64,000 nt of DNA from contig CADBDT010000010.1 in assembly GCA_902793465.1 (NCBI GenBank), positions 1 through 64,000 of the forward strand, written 5' to 3'. Positions 11,716 to 40,204 of the stretch are shown here, piece by piece. This DNA comes from an uncultured Coriobacteriaceae bacterium (GTDB lineage Bacteria > Actinomycetota > Coriobacteriia > Coriobacteriales > Atopobiaceae). The notes beneath the pieces are model-generated. The model did not search any database, had not been told where the DNA came from, and saw only the letters and a program-made list of their open reading frames with translations. The position numbers and the translations under genes are program-made. Within the stretch, counting starts at the first letter, position 1; each line of letters opens with the position of its first letter.

Positions 11716-11870
11716 CATTGTATTTGGAGTGTGATGGTCTGTGTACGAACAGTTCAAATATCGAAATCGCGGCAGAATTTGCTGTGTTGAGTTGCACGCT
11801 CATCCGAACACCTTCCTTTTTGCTCAATACTCATCAGTACGCGTACGGATAAGTCCTGCACGGTAGTGCA

Positions 11871-11913
11871 TCCTTTCGTGAGTGGCGGGCATCCGCCCGC
11901 CCGCGCGAAAGGA
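11871..11913 (+). promoter_or_regulatory. Hairpin that can hide the transposase ribosome site
   Basis: TCCTTTCG (11871-11878) pairs with CGAAAGGA (11906-11913), and GGCGGGC pairs with GCCCGCC inside it. AAAGGA in the 3' arm is the ribosome binding site for TTG 11921, seven bases away. A transcript entering from outside the element would fold and mask this site. Such protection from outside transcription is known in IS10 and IS50; here it is inferred from the fold alone. Confidence 0.6.
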
Positions 11914-11920
11914 CACAGAG

Positions 11921-13242
11921 TTGGCAAAGCGAAAGGGAGAGAAGAGGTACTACAGACTCGACGTCAGGGAGAGGAGGTCGATAGAGCGCGGGCTGGACAG
12001 GCGTGAGAGCTGCAGGTCCATGGCAAGGGACCTGGGAAGGTCCGCGTCCACGGTGCACGACGAGGTGGTGAGGAACCGCGTCGTCACCAGGGGCCCGGGC
12101 AAGGGCGACAACGTGGAGGGCACCGACGGCCGGCACGCGAAGGGCCGGCGCACCTGCCCGAAGCTGCTGAGCTGGCCCTTCTGCTGCAACGGCTGCAGCT
12201 ACCGCCGCATGAGGTGCTCGTACGGGTGGAGGTGCGAGTACCTGGCCGACGACGCGCAGGCGTTCGCCGACGAGGACCAGGTCGGGCCCCGCCGCGGCGT
12301 GGACATGGACCGGGAGGGCTTCGAGCTCGCGGTCTCGCTCATCAGGGCCGACCTCGCGCGGGGCCTGTCGCCGCAGCAGATAGCGGAGGCCAGGGCGGGG
12401 CAGGTGGGCGTCAGCAAGTCCACGATCTACCGGTGGGTGGAGGAGGGCTACGGCGGCATGAGCAACGCGGAGCTGAGGCGCAAGGTGGGATACAAGCCAC
12501 GCAGGAAGGAGGGGCCCAGGAGGGCCACACACCACGGCCCCGAGCGCTCCTACCAGGCGTTCCTGGCGATCCCCGAAGGCGAGCGGGCGCGCGCCTGCGA
12601 GATGGACACCGTCTGCGGCAGGACCGGCGACTCGCAGTGCCTGCTCACGCTGTACTCCCGGGCGTGCAAGGCGCAGCTTCCGCTGCTGATGGCGGAGAAG
12701 ACGAAGACGGCCACGGTGGCCAAGCTCGACGAGGTGGAGCGGGCGATGGGGCTGGAGGCCTTCCGCCGCCTGTTCGGACTCGTGCTGACGGACAACGGCG
12801 GCGAGTTCGAGGACGCCGAGGGGATCGAGCGGTCGTGCACCGCCGAGGGCGAGAGGCGCTGCCGGGTGTTCTACTGCGACCCCATGCAGTCGCAGCAGAA
12901 GCCCGGGTGCGAGTCCGTATGTGCCATGGCACATACGCGCTCAGCACATATGAGCGCAACCACGTGGAGATCCGCAAGATGCTTCCGAAGGGCGTCGGCA
13001 TATCCTTCGACGACCTCGACGAGGTCGACGCCTGGTTCGTCGGCTCCAACGTCAACTCCGAGCCCAGGCCGTCGCTCATGGGCCTCTCCCCGCTCGCGAT
13101 GCTGCGCGCGGCCGAGCCGGCCGTCGCGCAGGCGCTGACCGACGCGCTCGGCATCTGCGAGCTGCCCTACGACCAGCTCGACCTGACGCTCGGCGCGGTC
13201 AACCGCGAGCGCGGGGCGAGGGGGCTGGCGCCACTGGCCTAG
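11921..13242 (+). pseudogene. IS30-family transposase, frameshifted
   Basis: The enzyme would cut and join DNA with a DDE catalytic triad. The first part is in frame 2, with a helix-turn-helix near the start (RRESCRSMARDLGRSASTV), a Cys-containing middle region and a second helix region (LSPQQIAEARAGQVGVSKST). The catalytic core shows EMDTVCG with the first Asp, LTDNGGEFED with the second, and YCDPMQSQQKPGCE with the Glu. Directly after this Glu the frame is lost, and frame 1 resumes with NHVEIRKMLPKG, as IS30 proteins have. The cause is the 41-bp insertion at 12917-12957. TTG 11921 (AAAGGA seven bases upstream) is the likely start; GTG 11882 is in the same frame. The element is probably not autonomous. 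Confidence 0.85.
12917..12957. repeat. 41-bp double palindrome inserted in the transposase gene
   Basis: The 20-bp perfect palindrome GTATGTGCCATGGCACATAC (12917-12936) is joined to a 21-base hairpin, GCGCTCA-gcacata-TGAGCGC (12937-12957). Together they are 41 bp, and removing them restores the transposase frame exactly (CESNHVEIRK). Because GAG stands before and inside the end of the block, the borders can also be drawn as 12914-12954. I see no other copy in the window. Confidence 0.85.
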
Positions 13243-13512
13243 CGGCGCCGAAAACCTGACAGCGCCAACGGCGCCGCAGCCTGTACGGATGAGTCTGGAC
13301 TGACCCCGGCGGGTAGGGACGCCCTTGCCCTTTTTGACTCAGCCGAACGCGTCGCGTTTCGGGTAACGCCAGGTAGGGGCCTCGCATGCGAGCTGCTTCC
13401 GTCTCTCCCGACCGTTCGGATATCTGCGGAAACGTCGCAACCGGTCCACCCGTTCGGATGACCTTGGGAATCAACCGGCAGAATTTGGCGGCCTGCCAAT
13501 GGGGCTGGGCCC

Positions 13513-39357: not shown

Positions 39358-40204
39358 AGTGCTTGGCTCCAAGACGCATGTATCGCAACCGCTCGGCCCT
39401 GTCTGCGCTGGTGGCAAGTCGTAGGCCCGCTTGGATGGTGGCCTCGTACAGAAGAACCGCCTTGCTGGCAAGCGGCACGTAAGGCTTTCTGAGCAGGTAC
39501 AGGCGGTCGCGCATTTGGTAGTATTCCCTAAACGGCTTTGATTGGGAAATGTTGTGCGCGAGCACGCCCGACGCTGACTCGCCAATCTCGTGTACTATTA
39601 CGCTCCTTGTGGTAAGGGCTATCACATACCCACGATCGGCCATCTTCCAACACAGGTCATAGTCGGCCATGTCCAAAAAGATGTCGCCACTCCAAAAGCC
39701 TACGGACTGCAGATTCTCGTAAGTGGTGAGCATGGATGAGGTAATCACCTTTTCCACGAGCATGCTCGTGGGACTTACTTCCTTGCGTAATTTTGGTATG
39801 CGCGTCTTCTGCGCGTTTGTCTCGTAGTAGGCGGGACCAATACATCCCACCTTGTAACCTAGCCGGTTCAGTGTGTCGAACTCTTCTATTAGCGCGGCTA
39901 TGTGATTCGGCTCTATGTGCGTATCTTGATCGAAGAACACAACGTAGTCGTCTGCATTCCACGCAAAGTGACGGGAGTCTGTCAAACAAGTGTTGAAGGC
40001 TGTGGAGAGTCCGAGGTTGCTGCCGTTGGCTATGTAGCGGATCTTTTCGTCTTCGGGTCGCGAGCCAAACAGGCGGCTGTTGTCTGAGCGGCTGTTGTCC
40101 ATAACAATGGTGGAATCACTTTGTGCCGCAATGGCGCGCACATTGTTGGCATTGGTACTGTTTGGGTCAAAAAACGTTACGAGGGAGACTATTCTTCCGG
40201 CCAT
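39323..40204 (-). CDS. GT2 glycosyltransferase, rhamnosyltransferase-like
   Basis: The 293-residue product opens with VSLVTFFDPNSTNANNVRAI, followed by STIVMDNSRSDNSRLF, GSNLGLSTAFNTCL and the metal site FFDQDTHIEPNHIAAL. FWSGDIFLDMADYDLCWKM and the His-containing VIVHEIGES follow near residue 190. The start of the domain and the D-x-D-T-H segment resemble the rhamnosyltransferase subfamily (TIGR01556 type), which suits a locus that makes dTDP-rhamnose. It is the last gene of a minus-strand run of three with the flippase and the GT2 at 41750. The 3' end overlaps a convergent gene by 35 bases. Confidence 0.82.
   Translation of the reverse strand: MAGRIVSLVTFFDPNSTNANNVRAIAAQSDSTIVMDNSRSDNSRLFGSRPEDEKIRYIANGSNLGLSTAFNTCLTDSRHFAWNADDYVVFFDQDTHIEPNHIAALIEEFDTLNRLGYKVGCIGPAYYETNAQKTRIPKLRKEVSPTSMLVEKVITSSMLTTYENLQSVGFWSGDIFLDMADYDLCWKMADRGYVIALTTRSVIVHEIGESASGVLAHNISQSKPFREYYQMRDRLYLLRKPYVPLASKAVLLYEATIQAGLRLATSADRAERLRYMRLGAKHFRRGIHDPLDD

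Follow-up and report, generated by a model that had tools for sequence, protein, structure and literature searches.

A palindromic block in an IS30 transposase gene as the very probable attachment-site scar of a RIT element

The interrupted IS30 element

The window studied here, a 64,000-nucleotide stretch from the genome of an uncultured Coriobacteriaceae bacterium (contig CADBDT010000010.1), contains an IS30-family insertion sequence whose transposase gene is divided by a 41-bp block (Table 1). The terminal inverted repeat of the element (I1) is 79% complementary, and the same ends are present in G012, a genome of the same genus. The 5' part of the transposase matches the NCBIfam IS30 model NF033563 (E=2e-18) up to profile position 230 of 267; its score of 67 bits comes from the 5' part alone and lies below the curated cut-off of 80, which is meant for the whole protein. 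Profile match and conserved Glu together place the gene in the IS30 transposase family. Among 11 uninterrupted related proteins, 10 align an E at this position, and the eleventh (L029) stops just ahead of it. The 3' half of the transposase resumes at GAGCGCAACCACG (from 12952), and the halves lie in different frames (open reading frames 11882-13138 and 12214-13242). The window sequence, the reading frames, and the alignment confirm the original prediction of a 41-bp insert that frameshifts the transposase directly after the catalytic Glu. Because of this frameshift, the transposase is presumably dead. A viral search found no relatives of it. A direct repeat of 12 bp, CGGCAGAATTTG (11770-11781 and 13476-13487), borders the IS30 copy on both sides, with four extra bases (CTGT) on the left. 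The repeat is possibly a long target duplication; IS30 target duplications are usually 2-3 bp, and 12 bp would be unusual.

Table 1. Features of the interrupted IS30 element, in coordinates of the window
Feature	Position	Strand	Remarks
IS30-family insertion sequence, host of the putative scar	11786..13475	+	bounded by 24-nt imperfect inverted repeats
Transposase, 5' part, 331 aa	11921..12913	+	last codon is the conserved catalytic Glu, GAG 12911-12913
5' spacer GAGTCC, 6 bp	12911..12916	+	unlike GAGCGC on the other side
Perfect palindrome, 22 bp	12916..12937	.	core GTATGTGCC-AT-GGCACATAC at 12917-12936
Inner spacer GCGCTC, 6 bp	12937..12942	+	reverse complement of the target spacer GAGCGC
Lone remaining arm of the putative RIT end, 9 bp, AGCACATAT	12943..12951	+	identical GCGCTCAGCACATATGAGCGC adjoins the RitC stem-loop in G012
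Target-site spacer GAGCGC	12952..12957	+	as in intact IS30 relatives L054, L058-L060, and L065
Transposase, 3' part, other frame	12952..13242	+	begins ERNHVEIRKMLPKG, ends GLAPLA and stop

The order of sequence across the junction is GAG (12911-12913)-TCC-GTATGTGCCATGGCACATAC (12917-12936)-GCGCTC-AGCACATAT-GAGCGC (12952-12957)-AACCACGTGG. Since GAGNNN stands on both sides, the insert can be written equally well as 12914-12954 or 12917-12957. The palindrome, first described as 20 bp, is perfect over 22 bp; the adjoining hairpin of 21 bases (12937-12957) stands as described. We read the palindrome core as two recombinase-type arms placed back to back. It is the sole perfect palindrome of at least 20 bp in the window, where simulation gave a mean of 0.09 (first-order Markov, 100 runs); the runner-up, CCACGAGCATGCTCGTGG (39754-39771), measures 18 bp. 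The 41 nucleotides fold into two adjacent hairpins (z = -4.66), and none of 200 shuffles was equally stable. A dispersed repeat was ruled out, as the 3.1-Mb genome contains a single copy of the full 41 bp, even with up to 3 mismatches allowed, and the exact 20-mer had no match in viral contigs.

A first DNA search with the window's IS30 sequence covered 16 genomes of the genus and returned brief extra matches at the palindrome. A motif search gave 13 matching rows besides the window, of which 10 (representing 9 loci) are intact and 3 are interrupted (L084, L085, and L188). The intact rows continue from the GAG codon with CGC, AAG, or AGG followed by AACC, without any block (for example, GAG followed by CGCAACCACG). 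G007 and G015 also carry this palindrome after the equivalent Glu codon, but there it leads into another gene in reverse orientation; the window's 20-mer is identical in G007, where the palindrome lies 57 bp from the contig end, and has one mismatch in G015. The condition that would have refuted the original prediction, every related IS30 carrying the 41 bp in a working frame, does not hold: intact relatives lack the block, and the palindrome-bearing relatives are broken as well. Many of the relatives compared are draft genomes. Arm-less palindromes join two target genes head to head at L084 11797-11828 (G007), L085 3225-3256 (G015), and L214 ~1501 (G120), and the partner genes in G007 and G015 are of the same kind (ELKAQGE motif).

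RIT ends and an occupied homologous site

The block finds its closest counterpart at the ends of RIT elements, which consist of a trio of overlapping tyrosine recombinases with inverted repeats at the termini, one end being overlapped by a palindrome. In G012, a gene for a tyrosine recombinase of 283 aa has a stem-loop behind its stop codon, then the window's hairpin (21 of 21 bases identical) and the next few bases of the transposase. This stem-loop ends GGCACATAAC and leads into CGCGCTCAGCACATATGAGCGC and IS30 sequence. Relatives of the G012 recombinase repeat the arrangement: after the stop codon come a stem-loop whose arms are TATGTGCC.../...GGCACATA, ~8 bp, an arm of 9 bp, and 6 bp, in many cases followed by a palindrome of 20-22 bp. 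The better-covered relatives are preceded by two further tyrosine recombinases, which identifies the G012 protein and its relatives as RitC; that it was a solo gene had been considered and was dropped after this comparison.

We surveyed end anatomy in 41 trio-related loci. The general layout is target-6 bp-(palindrome-6 bp inverted)-arm-8 bp-stem-loop-RitABC-stem-loop-8 bp-arm-6 bp-target, with the palindrome mostly at one end. A script detected the palindrome in 17 of the 41 loci, and 5 further imperfect palindromes were judged by eye (L132, L152, L188, L192, and L197). Stem-loop, arm, and palindrome are combined in this way next to the RitABC trios of other Coriobacteriia, and also next to those carried by named Streptomyces, Mycobacterium, Rhodococcus, Methylocystis, and Bradyrhizobium plasmids. 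The window has the palindrome, the 6-bp inverted spacer, the 9-bp arm, and the 6-bp target spacer in this order, yet with one arm only, oriented as the far end. Some loci showed other arrangements. In L139 (G087) and L156 (Paraburkholderia plasmid pBN3), the RIT lies between inverted copies of the same target half (an IstB 3' half and a group II intron, respectively), as though an inverse duplication of the target had taken place. L140 (G131:C36) has two RIT-like trios on one contig, and the palindrome of one end lies where another tyrosine recombinase gene has its RH motif region, perhaps a RIT inserted into a RIT.

An occupied form of the site is found in G341, which belongs to another family of the same order. 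Here a full RIT splits the homologous IS30 transposase at the same codon (L188), in the order ...QQKGACE, GAGCGC, palindrome CTATGTGTTTAAGTACATAG, GCGCTC, arm, RIT, arm, GAGCGC, NHVELRKMLPK..., and the half beyond the RIT is homologous to the 3' part of the window transposase. The far junction reads arm-GAGCGC-AATCACG, and 3383 bp separate the two junctions. The window, A5'-GAGTCC-palindrome-GCGCTC-(one 9-bp arm)-GAGCGC-A3', has the same layout, including GCGCTC at the equivalent place; the RIT body and one arm are absent. The window genome (a draft, 98.7% complete, in 68 contigs) contains no set of three adjacent overlapping tyrosine recombinase genes: its four PF00589 places lie on four separate contigs, and a RitC search likewise returned no trio. 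Therefore, the window holds a RIT remnant and not a RIT, and the scar is orphaned in this genome.

Origin of the scar

We consider it very probable that the block is the attachment-site scar of a RIT that inserted at the catalytic-Glu codon of the IS30 transposase and later lost its body. In this respect, the early suggestion that the block was a target of a recombinase was well founded, as its structure is that of a RIT end or attachment site. An element with RitA, RitB, and RitC would have entered at this codon, giving the layout target-6 bp-palindrome-inverted 6 bp-end arm-RIT-end arm-6 bp-target. By analogy with other tyrosine recombinases, its enzymes would bind the arms, and strand exchange would take place at the 6-bp spacer. 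The 6 bp beside the arm would be exchanged and could travel with the element, as is described for SE elements (PMC10214605). The 5' spacer GAGTCC was probably carried in from an earlier site, as it differs from the 3' GAGCGC and recurs in G015, G066, and G120 next to palindromes of this type.

The body would then have been lost, with palindrome, inner spacer, and one 9-bp arm staying behind. Against this reading, no RIT-occupied copy of the locus is known in this species, so the loss stays an inference. The arm beside the window's inner spacer points opposite to the arm in occupied sites, that is, it is the far-end arm, so the excision would not have been clean. The body was probably removed by a deletion with one endpoint at GGCACATAC-GCGCTC, next to the palindrome, and the other at GGCACATAACCGCGCTC, on the right-hand end of a RIT of the G012 type. 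Both endpoint sequences exist, the second of them in G012. A simple deletion does not account for the arm-less palindromes that join target genes head to head in G007, G015, and G120.

These palindrome-only joints are also what would be expected if the palindrome and arm were a tiny gene-less derivative, powered by a RIT and inserted directly, instead of what is left of a full element. Such a derivative would account for the arms at the two ends, which point outward (GTATGTGCC at the left, AGCACATAT at the right) like those of a complete element. However, there is a single copy in the genome, the block is too short to form a double-stranded circle, and in the relatives in G012 and G341 the equivalent place holds RIT genes, partial or full. 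We therefore regard direct insertion as unlikely, while keeping it in view. The miniature insertion named in the original prediction is right in the sense of a gene-less remnant and otherwise only partly so.

Far less probable than direct insertion is an assembly artefact in which repeats were joined through the palindrome. Palindromes are hard for assemblers, and the genome is a draft in many pieces, but the contig around the block is 137,916 bp long, and comparable anatomy occurs in complete named plasmids. Template-switch or palindrome-templated repair, which would have made both hairpins by chance near the Glu codon, is hardly credible. The hairpins are adjacent and have common sequence, and GCGCTC is the reverse complement of the nearby GAGCGC, but the palindrome occurs independently at this codon in G007 and G015, as well as next to RITs in other places, which contradicts this mechanism; although it was among those first proposed, it is not needed. 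A programmed frameshift or ribosome bypass, with GAG take-off and GAG landing 41 nt apart on either side of a stable hairpin, has the smallest chance of being correct and was rejected, as the block is absent from intact relatives instead of being conserved in functional homologues, and other palindrome-bearing genes are fused to unrelated sequence.

Target choice and comparison with known systems

A search for the palindrome elsewhere, as had been suggested, was productive. The pattern TATGTGCNNNNGCACATA is rare and specific: across 396 genomes of the class it turned up 12 times, never more than once per genome, and the reversed control pattern gave 0 among the matches listed for the same genomes. 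When both flanks are read toward the palindrome, ten of these places are RIT-type sites, and eight of the 12 lie directly after a transposase Glu codon, either of IS30 (G000, G007, and G015) or of IS3 (G049, G014, G337, G066, and G120, the last assigned to IS3 by motif alone). One palindrome is in an Abi_2 gene (G056) and one in a phage head gene (G003); two are imperfect and look like chance matches (G012:C10 and G260:C22). The Glu codon is thus a recurring insertion point of RIT elements, and not the incidental place that it had been taken for.

Junction positions in the target proteins are also reproducible. By the ends of NCBIfam alignments, IS30 junctions fall at profile positions 230 (window), 230 (G007), and 231 (G341), and the IS3 junctions at 318, 319, 319, and 320 (4 of 4 tested). 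Insertions in IstB start at Pfam position 104 in three of three cases, in the Walker A region as judged by motif. Because insertions in these three families recur at the same profile positions, we think that the element may pick DNA that encodes catalytic motifs. This is not a universal rule, as 9 of 26 scanned flanks are other genes. The flanks scanned for protein families came from the 41 trio-related loci, of which 12 others extended beyond their contig, lacked a recognisable end, or had no flank identification; L082 (plus strand), L133, and L135 were judged from sequence alone. Not every flanking gene is proven to be the one interrupted, and with this proviso the 26 comprise 14 DDE-type transposases (several under the curated cut-off), 3 IstB, and the 9 others: Abi_2, AlbA_2, another tyrosine recombinase, PolyVal metallopeptidase (two), group II intron reverse transcriptase, a phage head protein, an ACT-domain gene, and one unknown. 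By eye, some of these nine have a conserved motif at the junction, and others have none. In L136 (G056), the RIT end lies within the Abi_2 gene at an RNGCAHN motif, and in L196 (G012:C33), it lies beside an AlbA_2-type gene at an ANAIVH motif; by description, both are defence-like or regulatory genes struck at conserved motifs.

We are evenly divided on the broader proposal that RITs are site-specific parasites of mobile elements. Their recombinases would recognise catalytic-motif DNA (the DDE Glu of IS3 and IS30, Walker A of IstB, and IS66/IS21 motifs), each insertion would kill the transposon at its active site, and the palindromic scar may outlast the RIT. If so, genomes now without RITs would still document earlier RIT attacks, legibly, in their scars, and a gene-less scar of known layout would serve as a sequence signature of past activity. 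That the same transposase codon is struck repeatedly suggests a targeting rule that is simple and testable, comparable to the persistence of inteins and homing elements through the targeting of invariant motifs. IS200/IS605-derived palindromic miniature elements, like the window block, have short palindromic ends without genes. In contrast to these, the window palindrome is tied to tyrosine recombinases, and no relation to an HUH transposase was seen; a reading of this type was dropped once the tyrosine recombinase was found.

Several components of this picture are in print. Two papers describe the RIT trio, its approximate inverted repeat, and the palindrome, as well as single RIT insertions into an IS66 or Tn6049-like transposase or radC (PMC3414803, PMC2864759); in one of them, ritA1B1C1 inactivates an IS66 tnpA and another trio lies in radC (PMC2864759). 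A further paper describes the RitC grouping (PMC8138268). We found neither a catalytic-codon target rule nor a gene-less scar in the portions of the RIT literature covered, a weak absence given that the main RIT paper (Ricker et al. 2013, Plasmid) falls outside them. RITs are widespread, but how they move and choose their targets is listed as untested; a 2023 table gives target specificity and the empty site as not formally tested (PMC10214605). The window differs from a RIT in having no recombinase gene, only a palindrome, a spacer, and one arm. SE elements, as described in the same paper, lack the RIT trio and carry the genes intA-tfp-intB-srap; they resemble the window and RITs in their tyrosine recombinases, inverted end motifs, and travelling 6-bp spacer (PMC10214605).
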